Positions 4,791 through 15,244 of a stretch of DNA of 15,244 bases are shown here, piece after piece. Within the stretch, counting starts at the first letter, position 1, and each line of letters opens with the position of its first letter. The DNA is from Chloroflexota bacterium. GTDB lineage: Bacteria > Chloroflexota > UBA5177 > JANWHV01. The stretch spans positions 1 to 15,244 of the forward strand of contig JAICHN010000074.1 of NCBI GenBank assembly GCA_025924845.1, read 5' to 3'. The notes under the pieces are model-generated. The model was not told where the DNA came from and ran no database searches. It saw nothing but the letters and a program-made list of their open reading frames with translations. Both the position numbers and the translations under genes were made by a program.

Positions 4791-4836
4791 ATCACTTTGA
4801 TGGTGATCCGGGCCGGCAGGTGTGGTGATCCACCAC
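4791..4836. promoter_or_regulatory. Cluster of GTGAT half-sites and a perfect palindrome, possible operator
   Basis: ATCAC (4791-4795) and GTGAT (4803-4807) form an inverted repeat with a 7-nt gap. TGGTGATCC occurs at 4801-4809 and again at 4823-4831, exactly 22 bp apart, about two helical turns. The second copy lies inside the perfect inverted repeat GTGGTG-ATC-CACCAC (4822-4836), which abuts a candidate -35 box at 4837. This layout between divergent genes fits a dimeric regulator binding site. In an upstream transcript it would form a small hairpin instead. Confidence 0.4.
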
Positions 4837-4866
4837 TTGACGCTTGCAAATTACCCTTCGTACACT
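4837..4866 (+). promoter_or_regulatory. Second promoter candidate, giving a near-leaderless transcript
   Basis: TTGACG (4837-4842, 5 of 6), an 18-nt spacer, TACACT (4861-4866, 4 of 6; also fits TANNNT). The -10 box ends 8 nt before the ATG at 4875, so transcription would begin at or next to the start codon. That would explain the lack of a convincing Shine-Dalgarno sequence there. Confidence 0.35.
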
Positions 4867-4874
4867 ACGCGGGT

Positions 4875-5693
4875 ATGAGAACGTTGCAGGTAGACGAACG
4901 AGAGGTCGCGAACACCCTGAAAGAGTCTAATAACGGCTCGGTGGTCGCCGTAACTCAGCGCCCTCTCGTGGTGATTCCCACCTACAATGAACGCGAGAAC
5001 ATCGAAGCTATCGTGCTCGCCATTCGCGAGCAACTCCCCCAGGTCAGCCTATTGATCATCGACGATAACTCTCCGGATGGTACCGGAGCTATCGCCGACG
5101 GGCTTGCCGAACGGCTGGGCAACATGGAGGTGCTGCACCGATCGGGCAAACTGGGCCTCGGTACGGCGTACATCGAAGGATTTCGCTACGCGCTCCGCCA
5201 CGACTATAGCTGCGTGTTTGAGATGGACGCCGATTTTTCCCACGATCCACGCCACCTGCCGCAGCTCCTGGCGGGCATAGAACGATATGACCTGGTGATA
5301 GGGTCGCGGTATGTGCCGGGAGGGGCGACGCCTGATTGGAAGGCCATCCGGAAGGTCATAAGCGGCGCCGGTAACGTATTTGCCCGTAACACCCTGGGGT
5401 TGCCGGTGCGGGACTGCACGGCAGGCTACAAGTGCTATCGCCGTGACCTACTGGCGGCGTTGGATCTCGATCGCATCAACCTTCAGGGTTATGCGTTCCA
5501 GATCGAAACCGTCTATCAGACCATCCGCGGCGGGTTCACCGTGGGCGAAGTGCCGATCGTTTTCCCCGACCGCCGGCTCGGCCACTCCAAAATGTCCGGC
5601 CAGATTGTAGTTGAGGCATTCAGGTATGTGGTGCGACGGCGCTGGCAGGAGCTTCGGCGCCGGCGCGGGCAGGCGCGCGCTCCTCGGGGTTAA
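4875..5693 (+). CDS. Polyprenol-phosphate mannose synthase-like GT2 glycosyltransferase
   Basis: A DPM1-family enzyme that moves mannose (or another hexose) from a GDP/NDP sugar to polyprenyl phosphate on the cytoplasmic face of the membrane. With the ATG at 4875 it has 272 residues. Motifs in order: PTYNE (35-39), DDNSPDG (63-69) for nucleotide binding, GKLGLGTAY (91-99), the metal-binding DADFSHDP (118-125), GSRY (143-146), DCTAGYKCYRR (180-190), QGYAFQIE (204-211) and RRLGHSK near 233-239. There is no C-terminal membrane domain, so it is the soluble, membrane-associated type. The frame is open back to a TTG at 4797, but the extra 26 residues do not resemble the family and that start falls only about 8 nt from the predicted transcription start. 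The tail is very Arg-rich, which may help membrane contact. The next gene is 104 nt downstream and encodes a likely user of the lipid-linked sugar. Confidence 0.92.
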   Translation: MRTLQVDEREVANTLKESNNGSVVAVTQRPLVVIPTYNERENIEAIVLAIREQLPQVSLLIIDDNSPDGTGAIADGLAERLGNMEVLHRSGKLGLGTAYIEGFRYALRHDYSCVFEMDADFSHDPRHLPQLLAGIERYDLVIGSRYVPGGATPDWKAIRKVISGAGNVFARNTLGLPVRDCTAGYKCYRRDLLAALDLDRINLQGYAFQIETVYQTIRGGFTVGEVPIVFPDRRLGHSKMSGQIVVEAFRYVVRRRWQELRRRRGQARAPRG

Positions 5694-5797
5694 TCGCCTA
5701 TCCGGCATAACCTGCGTTCTCCACGCCCCATACAACGCACCTCATCGCGACCCTGTACACTCCAGGCTGGAGCGGTCGGCGTTGAGAGGGAGCGCCC
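5694..5797. other. Intergenic gap with a short inverted repeat
   Basis: 104 nt between two same-strand genes. A small inverted repeat CTCCA-GGC-TGGAG sits near 5760-5772. It has no T-run, so it is not a convincing terminator. No clear promoter was found; the two flanking genes could be co-transcribed. Confidence 0.3.
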
Positions 5798-7267
5798 ATG
5801 GCGGTGGAGTGCGACACGTCCGAGGCCGTGAGGAAGCGCCGTCTTCCGTCCCCACCGGCCGGGCTCCTGCCGGCGACGGCCGTACTTCTCGCCCTGTGCG
5901 CCGCCTATTGGCCGGCGGCAATGCGCCCTTCAAGTCACGCTTACCTCGACTATGTCGACGGCTACTACCTTTATGTCTCCCAGCGTATGGCTCAGGGGGC
6001 GGTGCTCTATAGCGGCGTCATGGGCGTGCAGCCGCCGGGCATCTACGTGGTCGGCGCCGCGCTGTTCCGGCTGTATGACCATCTGGCGGCGGCGCGCGTG
6101 TACTCCGGTCTGCTGCACTGCGCCACGATCATCCTCATGGCGGCCGTCTCCTACCGACTGAGCGGCCGGAGAGCCGAGGCGCTGCTGGCCGCGGCAATTT
6201 TCACCGTGGCGCCATATGGTTTGCTGTGGAGCCGGCTCTTTGATCCGAATCCCCTGGTAACCTTTCTCAGCCTGAGCTCGCTTTGGGCGCTCCTTGGGGA
6301 CCGCACACGTTGGGCGGCAGCGGCCGGGGGGTTCGCCGCCCTGGCTTTGCTGACTAAGGTCTGGTATCTCCCAGTTGGCGGGATAACGATCGTATGGCTC
6401 GCCATGCGGCGCCGTGAGCAGCTTGCCCCGTTCGTGACTGGCCTGGCCCTACCCGCCCTCGTCGCCTTCGCGCTGGGAACGCTCAGTGCGGGCGATGCCT
6501 TCCGCCAGGGGCTTCTGGTGCAGGATGCCTCGCCGATAAGCGGAAGCTGGTTTGAGACCTCCATCTACCATGTACTCAGCGACGACTGGCCTTTGCTCCT
6601 GCTCGGGTTGGCGGGGGCGCGGGCCATGTGGAGGCGCGGTGACGAGCGACATCACCTGGTCGCCCTCTGGATTCCCTGCTCCTGCCTGGTAATTCTGGCA
6701 ACTGTGAAGGAAGGAACCGCCTGGCCGGTGTTCCAATTCGCGGAGCCATTTCTGGCCATCGGCGCGGCGGCTCTCCTGGGTTGCCTGCCGGCGGGCAAGC
6801 GGACTGTCCGCGCCGAACCCAGCAACAAGCTCCTGCCGAGTCCGCCTTCGCTGCTCGTCCTGCTGCTCCTCACTCTTTTCGCTCTGCCGACGGTGCGCGA
6901 GGCGTCGTCATGGCCGGATTCCGGTGAGAACTCCCTGGCGCGGGCGCTCCGCGTCGCCGCGCCGCTCAACCGACCGGTGTTGGCGCCCCCGTTTTATCTC
7001 TATCTCTCGGGAAGGCGCGGCATAGATCAATTCGCCGATATCAACCTGTGGGGCCAGGAAGCAGAGCGCGGCAATCCTCGGGCGATGACGGCGCTCACGG
7101 CGATGGTCATTGCCTTGAATCGGGGCGCCGTACCGATGGTGCTGGCCGATAACCGCGTGTGGGCCCTGGCGGGGGTTCCGGCAGCGCTCCACGCCCACTA
7201 CCGGCAACTTCCCTTACGGGACCGCCTGCCGGTGGACCGGAGTGTCACGGTCTGGGTTCCGCGGTAA
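5798..7267 (+). CDS. Multi-spanning GT39/PMT-superfamily glycosyltransferase
   Basis: 489 residues with roughly ten hydrophobic segments in the first 360 and a soluble C-terminal part (about 380-489). After the first membrane segment (about 23-42) comes a short loop with Asp51 and Asp54 (LDYVDGYYLYVSQRMAQG), then QPPG (78-81). This matches the GT-C pattern of ArnT/PMT-type enzymes, where an acidic residue in the first outer loop is catalytic and an H/Q-PP motif follows. Such enzymes use polyprenyl-phosphate sugars on the outer face of the membrane to glycosylate lipids, proteins or polysaccharides. The preceding gene makes just such a donor. The ATG start has a good AGAGGGAG 5 nt upstream. 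The C-terminus shows no recognised domain. The gene ends 12 nt from the convergent ppc stop. The acceptor cannot be told from sequence. Confidence 0.83.
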   Translation: MAVECDTSEAVRKRRLPSPPAGLLPATAVLLALCAAYWPAAMRPSSHAYLDYVDGYYLYVSQRMAQGAVLYSGVMGVQPPGIYVVGAALFRLYDHLAAARVYSGLLHCATIILMAAVSYRLSGRRAEALLAAAIFTVAPYGLLWSRLFDPNPLVTFLSLSSLWALLGDRTRWAAAAGGFAALALLTKVWYLPVGGITIVWLAMRRREQLAPFVTGLALPALVAFALGTLSAGDAFRQGLLVQDASPISGSWFETSIYHVLSDDWPLLLLGLAGARAMWRRGDERHHLVALWIPCSCLVILATVKEGTAWPVFQFAEPFLAIGAAALLGCLPAGKRTVRAEPSNKLLPSPPSLLVLLLLTLFALPTVREASSWPDSGENSLARALRVAAPLNRPVLAPPFYLYLSGRRGIDQFADINLWGQEAERGNPRAMTALTAMVIALNRGAVPMVLADNRVWALAGVPAALHAHYRQLPLRDRLPVDRSVTVWVPR

Positions 7268-11977: not shown

Positions 11978-13003
11978 ATGAGTATCGCGCAGGAAAGTAT
12001 CGCGGGGTTGGCCACGCGCCCGGATGACGGAGAGCGCCTGGCGAGCTACCTCAACCACCAACTGTGCGCCGATATCCTGTCGCATGGCGGCTTGCTGGCC
12101 CAAACGACCAGCCATGCGCTGGCGGCTCCGGGAAAACTGCTCCGGCCGCGGCTCCTGCTCGATGCGTGTCGTGCCGTGGGCGGCGACCCCGAGCGTGTCT
12201 TTCCCGCCGCCGCCGGAACTGAATACGGGCATATCGCCAGTTTGATCCACGACGACATTATCGACGGCGACGGCGTGCGCCGCGGCCAAGAGTCGGTGCA
12301 TGCGAAGTACTCCGTGCCCGCGGCGATCCTGACCGGCGATCTGCTGATCTTCCAGACCTTCCTGAGCTATACCCTGTGCTATGCGCGCGGCATCAGCGCG
12401 GAGCGCGTGCTCACGGCAATCCGTCTGCTGAGCCTCACCTGTATCGGGGTGTGTGAGGGGCAAGCGCTGGAAGCAGGTATGGTTGGGCGTCTGGACACCA
12501 CGGAGCCAATGTACCTGGAGATGATTCGCCTGAAGACGGCGGGAGTATGGCGTGCCTCCGCCGAGATCGGCGCTTGCCTCGCCGGGGCCCCCGAAGAAAG
12601 TATCACCGCTTTGCGCGCCTACGGCGAAAATCTGGGCCTGGCCTTTCAGGTCGTCGACGACCTACTGTGCTTTGATGGCGTATCTGAACGCCTGGGCAAG
12701 TCGCCCCAGAGCGATTTGAGCAACGGACGGGTGACCTTGCCCATCATCTATGCCCTGGAAGACGCCGATCCGGCCACGCGCCGTCGGATCGCTAACCTCT
12801 TTGAGGACGGTCCACCGGATGCCGAGCATCGCCACGCGGAACTGGTTCGGCTCGTCACCGCTTCCGGTGGGCTGGATCGGGCACGTCAGACGGCGGTACG
12901 GCTAGCCTTGTCGGCCACGCGCCGGCTGGATCAGCTTCCTCCTTCCGATGCGGCCGCGCGCCTGCGCGCCATGGCCGACCTGGTTCTCTCTCGCGACTAC
13001 TGA
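11978..13003 (+). CDS. Polyprenyl diphosphate synthase (GGPP synthase-like)
   Basis: 341 residues from the ATG at 11978, which follows AAAGGGGG by about 5 nt. Condenses isopentenyl diphosphate with allylic diphosphates (trans-isoprenyl diphosphate synthase fold, all helical). Seen: GKLLRP (52-57), the first Asp-rich motif HDDIID with Asp92, 93 and 96, LTGDLL (118-123), KTA (186-188), the second motif DDLLC at 227-231, then GKSPQSDL (240-247) and RVTLP. Residues 4-5 before the first motif are Ser and Ala rather than aromatic, which by the usual rule permits products longer than farnesyl, so C20 or above. The second motif lacks its last Asp (Cys231 instead), a known but uncommon variation. The next two genes are a YjbQ protein (60 nt on) and a class II-type terpene cyclase, so geranylgeranyl diphosphate for a diterpenoid is the best guess. 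Quinone side-chain or carotenoid supply is an alternative. Confidence 0.9.
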   Translation: MSIAQESIAGLATRPDDGERLASYLNHQLCADILSHGGLLAQTTSHALAAPGKLLRPRLLLDACRAVGGDPERVFPAAAGTEYGHIASLIHDDIIDGDGVRRGQESVHAKYSVPAAILTGDLLIFQTFLSYTLCYARGISAERVLTAIRLLSLTCIGVCEGQALEAGMVGRLDTTEPMYLEMIRLKTAGVWRASAEIGACLAGAPEESITALRAYGENLGLAFQVVDDLLCFDGVSERLGKSPQSDLSNGRVTLPIIYALEDADPATRRRIANLFEDGPPDAEHRHAELVRLVTASGGLDRARQTAVRLALSATRRLDQLPPSDAAARLRAMADLVLSRDY

Positions 13004-13025
13004 GCCGTCGCGTCGAGCGCCGGCC

Positions 13026-13050
13026 CTAATCCGCCTTCATCGCCGATTAG
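13026..13050. repeat. Inverted repeat between prenyl synthase and YjbQ genes
   Basis: CTAATC (13026-13031) and GATTAG (13045-13050), perfect 6-bp arms with a 13-nt spacer, directly before the ribosome binding site of the next gene. There is no T-run. It could be an mRNA hairpin that tunes translation or stability of the downstream genes. Confidence 0.35.
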
Positions 13051-13063
13051 AAAGAAGGTACTC

Positions 13064-13678
13064 ATGAACGTCGAAATGCTAGCGGTCCCGTTCGTCCCTG
13101 ACGTCGATCCGGATACGCCCGCTCCCGCTCCTGATGTCGTGCATCGGGGCACCCAACGGTGCATCGGCGTCGCCGTGGCTTTCAGTGAGAGCTTCGCCGT
13201 GCATACGACCGGCCTCGCCCCCGCGTTCTTCGATGTGACTGATCTCGCTTGCGCCGTGGTGCGGCGCTCCGGCGTGTGGCAGGGTCATGTGCTCGCTTCG
13301 ACGTCTCATACCACCTGTGCCCTCATCGTGCAGGAAAACGAGCCGCTGCTTTTGCGCGACCTCGCCGACCGCTTGCAGCGCTTTGCTTCGCCCGATGAGA
13401 CGTACCGGCACAATCAGATGGGCGTTCGCACGGTCAATATGTGCGGGATCGACGAGTGTGCCAATGGCCACAGCCATTGCCAGCACGCCGTACTGGGCAC
13501 AAGTGCCCTGCTGCCGGTTCAGGACGGCGTGCCTGCCCTGGGTAGATGGCAGCGGCTCCTACTGGTGGAACTGGATCACCCGCGTCCGCGTGAGTTTACC
13601 ATACAGGTTACCGGAGTCGGTTCGCCCGACGCGGGGCATGCCGATCGGGCTGACCGGTGGTCGGGCGTGGGCCGGTGA
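13064..13678 (+). CDS. YjbQ/UPF0047 family protein with extended termini
   Basis: 204 residues; the family is usually about 135-140. The core (about 43-184) carries the signature STSHTTCALIVQENE (79-93), YRHN (114-117), NGHSHCQHAVLGTS (134-147) and PALGRWQRLLLVELD (157-171), ending in PRPREFTIQVTG. E. coli YjbQ has been reported to have weak thiamine-phosphate synthase activity, and databases carry that name; the true role is unsettled. The conserved His/Asn cluster (His82, Asn92, His116, His138) is kept. An insert at 120-135 adds Cys127 and Cys132, with Cys139 nearby. A Pro-rich 40-residue N-terminal extension and a 20-residue tail are not part of the family core. The ATG has GAAGG 5-6 nt upstream. 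The stop overlaps the cyclase start (TGATG), so the two are translationally coupled. A thiamine role does not fit the neighbours. Confidence 0.87.
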   Translation: MNVEMLAVPFVPDVDPDTPAPAPDVVHRGTQRCIGVAVAFSESFAVHTTGLAPAFFDVTDLACAVVRRSGVWQGHVLASTSHTTCALIVQENEPLLLRDLADRLQRFASPDETYRHNQMGVRTVNMCGIDECANGHSHCQHAVLGTSALLPVQDGVPALGRWQRLLLVELDHPRPREFTIQVTGVGSPDAGHADRADRWSGVGR

Positions 13679-15244
13679 TGCAGGCCGTTGTGTCCGGTCC
13701 TGGAAAGACTGCCTCGCTCGGCCTGGTTGTCTCTACCGTGACGACGGGCACGCCGCCGGCTCTGGACCTCCAGGAGGCGTTGGCCGGCGCCCTTCATCGC
13801 TTGGGCCAGGGCAGGCCCGCGGGGCAGGGTTGGGTAGGAGTCCTGTCATCCTCCGCCCTGGCCACGGCCGTGGCCATCGTGGCGCTCCAGCTTACGGATG
13901 CTCAACGGTATGCGACAGAGATCACGCGGGGGCGCCGCTGGTTGTGGGAAACGCAAGCGCCGGACGGAGGCTGGGGCGATGCCGTGGTCGATCCGTCCAA
14001 TATCAATGCTACCGCTCTGGCGATCGGCGCGCTTACTTTCACCGCTCCTCCTACACTCGATGCGGGCGCGGCACGGGCGCCGGCGAAAGCACACGCCTGT
14101 CTCGCGCGCTTCGGCGGCTTCGACGCCGTTGGTGATCCGCGGCGTTGTACGCTGAGCGGTCCGGCCCGGACGGTCGCTGCCCTGGCTGGGCTGATGGATT
14201 GGCGCCGCATCAAGCGCCTGCGGCCCGAAGTCGTGCTTCTTCCGCCACGGCTTCGCCGCACCATTTCCACTACCTTTCCGGCCTACCTTAGCATTGCCGG
14301 CGTGCATGCGCGCATGGCGCCACATCCGCTCAACTTGCTCCCCACGTACGGCTATGCGCGCGGGCGCCTCGTGGATTGGTTGCGCCGCGCTCAGGGGCCG
14401 GACGGCTCTTTCGAGGAATCGGCCTTCCTCACTTCGGTGATCATTGCCGGTATGCTGCTTGGCGAGCAACGCCCAGTGCCCTGGCTCCCGGCGGCCATCC
14501 GGTTTGTCGTGGAGAGTCAACGCGAGGATGGCAGTTGGCCGATCGATCGTGACCTGGAAACCTTCGACACGGCCATGAGCGTGCAGGCGCTCCACGAGGC
14601 AGGGGTTGCCGTGCCGCACGGCGAGCAGGTCCGTGACTGGCTGTTGGCAAGGCAGTTTCAGGATCCCTGCTTTCCGACCGGTGCCCGCCCCGGCGGTTGG
14701 GCCTGGGCGATGCCGGCGGGATGGCCGGAGTGTGATGACACCTCGTATGCTTTGCTTGCCCTCCTCGCACTCGGTGTCCCTGCCTCGGCGTCCCCAATTC
14801 GGCAGGGCGCTCGCTGGTTGGAGCGCATGCAGAACGCCGACGGCTCCTGGTCCACCTTCGTGCGCGACTCACACATGCCCTTCGATCGCGACTGTCCGTA
14901 CATTACAGGCCATGTGCTCAGCGCACTCTGGGCAGCCGGGCGCCTGAGCCGAACCTCGCCTATGCTGACTCGGGCCCTCGACTATCTGGCCCGTGCGCAA
15001 CGCTACGACGGATCATTCGGTTCCATCTGGTTTCGTGAGGCCACGGCGGGTACCGCGTCGGTGCTCGAGGCGCTGGCCGATTGTGGCCTGGAGCGGACGG
15101 CCATGGCCCTGCGGGCCCGTGATGCTCTGCTGAGGAACCAGAATGCCGATGGCGGCTGGGCTGGACTCCGTGGGCAGGCAAGCACGGCAGAGGAAACCGC
15201 CTGGGCGACGCTGGCACTGCTACGCTGCCCGTCGGAGGCAGAAA
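13678..15244 (+). CDS. Class II terpene cyclase (squalene-hopene cyclase fold), 3' end cut by window
   Basis: 522 residues are visible and the frame is open at the right edge. Alpha-barrel QW motifs end at residues 99, 245, 287, 391, 447 and 494 (for example ETQAPDGGW, MQNADGSW, NQNADGGW); two have Phe for Trp. The acid motif is PECDDTSYALLAL with Glu351-Cys352-Asp353-Asp354, a variant of DxDD that keeps the central catalytic Asp. GQASTAEETAWATLALL at 499-515 resembles bacterial class II diterpene cyclases such as M. tuberculosis Rv3377c (as I recall it) more than squalene-hopene cyclase, and the spacing from the acid motif (about 150 residues) also fits. Such enzymes protonate geranylgeranyl diphosphate and leave the diphosphate in place. 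No signal peptide is seen. The ATG overlaps the YjbQ stop. A triterpene or C35 cyclase remains possible. A class I partner, if any, would lie beyond the window. Confidence 0.83.
   Translation, partial: MQAVVSGPGKTASLGLVVSTVTTGTPPALDLQEALAGALHRLGQGRPAGQGWVGVLSSSALATAVAIVALQLTDAQRYATEITRGRRWLWETQAPDGGWGDAVVDPSNINATALAIGALTFTAPPTLDAGAARAPAKAHACLARFGGFDAVGDPRRCTLSGPARTVAALAGLMDWRRIKRLRPEVVLLPPRLRRTISTTFPAYLSIAGVHARMAPHPLNLLPTYGYARGRLVDWLRRAQGPDGSFEESAFLTSVIIAGMLLGEQRPVPWLPAAIRFVVESQREDGSWPIDRDLETFDTAMSVQALHEAGVAVPHGEQVRDWLLARQFQDPCFPTGARPGGWAWAMPAGWPECDDTSYALLALLALGVPASASPIRQGARWLERMQNADGSWSTFVRDSHMPFDRDCPYITGHVLSALWAAGRLSRTSPMLTRALDYLARAQRYDGSFGSIWFREATAGTASVLEALADCGLERTAMALRARDALLRNQNADGGWAGLRGQASTAEETAWATLALLRCPSEAE

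Follow-up and report, generated by a model that had tools for sequence, protein, structure and literature searches.

The contig JAICHN010000074.1 of a Chloroflexota bacterium (15,244 nt, analysed over its full length and called the window below) carries at its right end, on the + strand, a three-gene operon encoding a polyprenyl diphosphate synthase (PPS), a protein of the YjbQ/UPF0047 family and a class II terpene cyclase. Relatives of this YjbQ are fused to three isoprenoid enzymes, which suggests, judging from sequence, that YjbQ itself works in isoprenoid synthesis. This link is a stronger result than the uncharacterised terpenoid pathway proposed in an earlier, sequence-only reading of the window. 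For the locus as a whole we give an even chance to an isoprenoid operon in which YjbQ would act on allylic diphosphates and a UbiA prenyltransferase encoded beyond the window would join the cyclised chain to an acceptor.

The operon and the isoprenoid partners of YjbQ

The PPS gene (11978..13003, + strand; 341 a.a.; PF00348, 4.8e-58, 196.8 bits) is followed after 60 nt by the YjbQ gene (13064..13678, + strand; 204 a.a.; PF01894 and TIGR00149), whose product has the insertion of the isoprenoid-fused subfamily. The cyclase gene (13678..15244, + strand; 521 a.a., truncated at the window edge; PF13243, 1.2e-31; PF13249, 1.3e-19) begins with an ATG on the last base of the YjbQ TGA: by direct reading, stop and start codons overlap in TGATG (13676..13680, + strand). 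The trio on one strand, the 60-nt gap and the overlap had been described in the sequence-only reading, and Pfam/NCBIfam matches and direct reading find all of them present.

A YjbQ search of 400 genomes of the phylum was positive (E ≤ 1e-25) in 104 of them, and 60 regions were taken, picked by score and long open frames. In 21 of the 60 regions YjbQ is fused to a PPS as its N-terminal domain, and in five it follows, as the C-terminal domain, a type II isopentenyl diphosphate (IPP) isomerase (IDI-2); Pfam/NCBIfam models support examples of both fusions (e.g. TIGR02151, with a cut-off of 281.3 bits, scores 389.8 bits for the IDI-2–YjbQ protein of L156 and 306.5 bits for that of L152). In another four regions YjbQ is unfused, with a same-strand match to PPS, IspH or the cyclase no more than 5 kb away. 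When the YjbQ domain of an IDI-2 fusion was searched against a database, the best 120 of 129 matches carried IDI-2 (114) or IspH (six) (organism names: Sphaerobacter, Eremiobacteraeota, Binatus, Dormibacteraeota and Acidoferrales). Unfused YjbQ genes are also found in two hopanoid clusters: around the YjbQ of L125 lie a cyclase, HpnH and HpnE, each exceeding its model cut-off (that of squalene-hopene cyclase for the first), and two genes of the squalene/phytoene-synthase family, and L141 has the order PPS–IspH–YjbQ–cyclase match, then HpnC over its cut-off. YjbQ, called not a known partner in the sequence-only reading, is a real partner, and the partnership is wider than was supposed there (fusions to PPS, IDI-2 and IspH).

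YjbQ structures have been in the Protein Data Bank since 2004 (1vmf, 1vph and 1xbf), and in 2021 the function was listed as unknown in PMC7954711. Fusions to three successive isoprenoid enzymes narrow this function to one substrate class, which makes it testable. In the open-access literature searched we found nothing linking YjbQ with terpene and no YjbQ title on isoprenoids; IspDF fusions are mentioned in PMC13001223.

Linkage of YjbQ with the cyclase is kept in one lineage. Twelve of 118 listed YjbQ homologues (the test took only those with a stated longest contig) have a source-sequence length exactly equal to that of one of 120 listed cyclases, and sliding the lengths by 1–60 as a control gave a mean of 0.7 matches (at most four). 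The 12 exact matches point to YjbQ and cyclase on shared contigs, the gene order itself being unseen. Genome G098 is the closest of the 400 by phosphoenolpyruvate carboxylase (66% over residues 1–705); there a PPS (63% identical) is followed by YjbQ (64% over the first 125 residues), in which the contig ends. No full trio was seen in whole genomes. The A1 cyclase search (E ≤ 1e-100), run without a positive control, found none in G098 and six other genomes of its class; elsewhere, G001 is the sole cyclase match among 158 genomes of its class, and the cyclase is present in four of 47 genomes of the order of G006.

Several observations weigh against a role of YjbQ in isoprenoid synthesis or in the proposed pathway. 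Because the 60 regions were chosen by score and long frames, fusions are favoured among them; three of these regions have only a PPS ∼3 kb away on the other strand, and 27 have no PPS, IDI-2, IspH or cyclase match near YjbQ. The search with the IDI-2 fusion favours the query's relatives and gives no unbiased count of partners. In the tree described below, PPS fusions and IDI-2 fusions come out as sister groups, so their YjbQs are not wholly independent. YjbQ was found at none of 79 cyclase loci of public genomes within the DNA fetched (many loci are shortened by contig ends), so that it is optional, and dispensable for PPS plus cyclase elsewhere. In the closest public loci (L001, L002, L003, L007 and L008) PPS adjoins the cyclase without YjbQ; here the conserved adjacency of the trio, whose absence in relatives the sequence-only reading had named as telling against it, does not hold, and with the linkage kept in one lineage the outcome of that check is mixed. 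YjbQ is an addition in one lineage and not an obligatory part of the PPS–cyclase locus. Eight genomes supplied nine close cyclase loci, and six of these genomes do have a weak YjbQ match (≤65 bits) elsewhere. Finally, the UbiA proteins of relatives score under the curated NCBIfam cut-offs.

Some other YjbQ loci deserve mention. G135 may carry both fusion types: a YjbQ–PPS fusion (L170) and a partial IDI-2 match (168 bits) beside another YjbQ match, at G135:C1:16117-17034. G054 and G066, of the same class as G098, have three and four YjbQ matches, respectively, one fused to the isomerase. At L126:4614-12911 YjbQ is beside genes that cluster with those for squalene synthase and HpnE in L125, and a related search locus, L096, has only short cyclase pieces upstream. 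YjbQ is near biotin carboxylase, carboxyl transferase and methylmalonyl-CoA mutase genes in L127 (by scanning) and in L128 and L156 (by clustering).

The synthase, UbiA and the proposed product

In the proposed pathway a linear prenyl diphosphate would come from PPS, compounds of this class would be handled by YjbQ, and protonation by the class II cyclase would close the rings. From the loci of relatives we infer a UbiA gene just past the window; its product would attach the cyclised chain to an acceptor that may be glycerol phosphate or lyso-phosphatidate. Four alternatives are weighed here and below; they address different parts of the story and are mutually compatible.

Aligned with 13 other PPS sequences, the window PPS has DDIID as its first Asp-rich motif and DDLLC at the second (DDxxD), where the third Asp is absent. 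This Asp is likewise absent in the PPS of L001, L002, L003, L007, L008, L182 and L009 and in the hopanoid-cluster PPS of L125 and L141; L153 and L162, whose PPS is fused, have it. The window PPS reaches the cut-off of no NCBIfam PPS or chain-length model (e.g. 201.6 for NF041003, the geranylgeranyl diphosphate (GGPP, C20) synthase equivalog, with a cut-off of 500), so the C20 type assigned to it in the sequence-only reading is not borne out. In two actinobacterial loci (L004:9003-9971 and L012:1318-2226) a PPS-like gene ahead of the cyclase has neither Asp-rich motif (the first-motif position reads HDNLPGMD and HDALPAIG, respectively); these genes may encode a non-catalytic subunit, because both motifs are missing.

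The gene after the cyclase encodes a UbiA prenyltransferase in eight of 10 close loci; DegV is near UbiA in six of the 10 and PlsY in five (either of them in six). The UbiA domain scores 111–124 bits in L001, L002, L004 and L008 (cut-off 34.2), and the UbiA proteins of L001, L002, L003 and L004 score 119.5–136.8 with the digeranylgeranylglyceryl phosphate (DGGGP) synthase equivalog PRK12882 (cut-off 296). For the UbiA of L001 the nearest solved structure is 6m31 (1.3e-17), the DGGGP synthase of M. jannaschii. The UbiA proteins of L001, L002 and L004 are nearest to DGGGP and chlorophyll synthases and keep, by eye, both Asp motifs.

A classical diterpenoid operon, in which a GGPP synthase and the class II cyclase feed a class I or UbiA-type terpene synthase, is the alternative that bears on these genes. 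Against it, the UbiA of L001, L002 and L004 keeps the Asp motifs and lies nearest to DGGGP/chlorophyll synthases, and DegV and PlsY are near UbiA in several loci; there is no class I terpene synthase or P450 among the scanned neighbours of close relatives, where part of the neighbours was scanned. We consider this alternative doubtful. Of the sequence-only reading, the uncharacterised terpenoid operon with a YjbQ partner is supported; C20 specificity and a classical diterpenoid route are not.

Because UbiA is nearest to the archaeal DGGGP synthase and DegV/PlsY are nearby, the product may be a cyclised-prenyl glycerolipid. It is a tentative and rather unlikely combination that YjbQ/UPF0047 is an isoprenoid enzyme on allylic diphosphates and that, in addition, the operon makes a glycerolipid with a ring-closed prenyl ether chain. 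If this lipid reading is true, ring-closed prenyl ethers would be added to the lipids of bacterial membranes. A Rubrobacter cyclase (P0232) is 52% identical to the window cyclase; Rubrobacter has cultured members, which are open to examination for such lipids. The open-access literature searched had nothing on a cyclase–UbiA combination with an ether lipid, on Rubrobacter with UbiA and squalene-hopene cyclase, or on a class II terpene cyclase with Chloroflex. Two actinomycete loci (L009:7980-12863 and L010:8039-12731) combine a UbiA match with a PPS and a related cyclase; the gene that follows these looks, by eye, like an FAD-dependent oxidoreductase.

The YjbQ domain and its possible role

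The window YjbQ matches PF01894 (2.4e-26, 92.6 bits; cut-off 27) and TIGR00149 (74.4 bits; cut-off 67.75). Its structure model (mean pLDDT 79; <50 for insertion residues 117–127) resembles YjbQ structures (1vph, E 3e-14). We compared five groups of domains: 120 stand-alone homologues, 35 further genome copies, and 118 IDI-2-fused, 21 PPS-fused and six IspH-fused domains (L151, an IDI-2 fusion, entered this count and the tree as a stand-alone copy). H82, T83, T84, E91, E93, D99, H116, R122, E131, N134, H138, Q163, E169 and R176 are each kept at ≥95% in every group, fused or unfused, and 17 polar or tyrosine columns reach ≥95% across the five. It is likely from this conservation that fused and unfused YjbQ have a working site; a ligand-binding site would look alike.

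In a quick tree (SH-aLRT support only; 104 of 304 domains) the PPS fusions form one clade (100) and the IspH fusions another (99), and the IDI-2 fusions fall together (93) as neighbours of the PPS clade (95). Since their domain order differs, these last two fusion types probably arose in separate events, even with YjbQs that are close.

YjbQ could instead be a non-catalytic regulatory or scaffold domain that brings isoprenoid enzymes together or controls them while binding prenyl diphosphates, as its fusion at either end of unrelated enzymes and its co-occurrence with the pathway genes tested would allow. The 17 conserved columns exceed what a mere scaffold needs, although a binding site would fit them, and we regard a scaffold as unlikely.

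In a chosen set of 28 genomes whose YjbQ is fused or clustered (completeness is not given, and single absences mean little), IspF is found in 27, IspH in 28, ThiE/TenI (PF02581) in 26 and HMG-CoA reductase in one. As IspF and IspH are nearly universal and HMG-CoA reductase is found in a single genome, these genomes use the methylerythritol phosphate pathway. YjbQ as a substitute for IspF or IspH is rejected, as both are kept. As for YjbQ as a possible replacement isomerase, the count covers IDI-2, which is over its cut-off in seven of the 28, including three of 20 PPS-fusion genomes.

What IspH, IPP isomerase and PPS have in common is that each handles allylic diphosphates. Thiamin phosphate synthase displaces diphosphate from hydroxymethylpyrimidine diphosphate (HMP-PP), whose CH2-OPP is on an sp2 carbon. 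Thiamin phosphate synthase activity is reportedly a low secondary activity of YjbQ (Morett et al. 2008). Because its partners all handle such diphosphates and its secondary reaction displaces diphosphate from HMP-PP, we propose, by analogy, that the native chemistry of YjbQ is on allylic prenyl diphosphates: it would most likely act on hydroxymethylbutenyl diphosphate (HMBPP), dimethylallyl diphosphate (DMAPP) or polyprenyl diphosphate via loss or hydrolysis of the diphosphate. In PMC7954711 yjbQ is listed, with hisB, php and other genes, as relieving a pdxB mutant on overexpression; a phosphatase role would be compatible with this grouping.

A thiamin phosphate synthase or damage-repair protein of the ordinary kind, located here by chance, would agree with the name given by TIGR00149 and with the secondary activity named by Morett et al., but ThiE/TenI is already present in most of the 28 genomes and it is isoprenoid enzymes to which YjbQ is fused, in three ways, which makes this improbable. 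YjbQ as the sole thiamin phosphate synthase is likewise unlikely, given the occurrence of PF02581 (which covers both ThiE and TenI); G054 and G066 have no PF02581 match.

The cyclase and comparison with known systems

The window cyclase has N and C domains of the squalene-hopene cyclase type and the class II fold. A complete homologue (P0121; 587 a.a.) is 94% identical to it. Its DxDD motif reads ECDD; among 120 homologues listed, DxDD is found in 92 and ExDD in 22, and the pattern was not found in six. The Glu variant shows no link with YjbQ presence (ExDD in two of the 12 length-matched cyclases, P0161 and P0177).

A standard hopanoid or squalene-cyclising operon is very unlikely, on model score and a missing segment: with the hopene cyclase model TIGR01507 the window cyclase, whose sequence ends at 521 a.a., scores 101.6 bits (cut-off 431.1), against 802 and 713 bits for the cyclases of L125 and L156, and ∼50 residues of those two are missing in relatives of the window cyclase. 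Pfam or NCBIfam scans of 12 window proteins (the contig ends inside the cyclase) gave no hpn model over its cut-off and no squalene synthase; one window glycosyltransferase scores 38.9 bits with HpnB (cut-off 379). A cyclase firmly of the squalene-hopene type beside hopanoid genes, which the sequence-only reading had named as telling against its proposal, is not what we find among these proteins. Elsewhere in the window (4797-7267) a GT2 glycosyltransferase is in tandem with a protein whose PMT_2 match is sub-threshold, a possible polyprenol-sugar pair.

The window YjbQ has the same fold as ordinary YjbQ/UPF0047 proteins (PF01894, TIGR00149; e.g. SSO2532, 1vph) and shares H82, T83, T84, D99, H116, H138, G160, Q163, E169 and R176 with three of them. 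Its subfamily differs from these three in an insertion with R122, which they lack, and in E131, where they have Asp; it also differs from ordinary YjbQs in its isoprenoid neighbours and fusions.

The window cyclase resembles the Alicyclobacillus squalene-hopene cyclase (2sqc) in its class II fold, in the last two Asp of DxDD and in a His aligned with the functional H451. Unlike 2sqc, it has Glu for the first Asp of the motif, has ∼50 fewer residues and is far under the hopene cyclase cut-off. It is 22–25% identical to the drimenyl diphosphate synthase SsDMS (7xq4) and differs from it also in its partners, here YjbQ and, in relatives, UbiA. The Herpetosiphon kolavelool synthase is treated in PMC9440906. 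With the DGGGP synthase 6m31 the comparison is through relatives: it is the best solved-structure match of the UbiA of L001, with both Asp motifs (by eye), but the relatives' UbiA proteins, below curated cut-offs, are encoded beside a class II cyclase.

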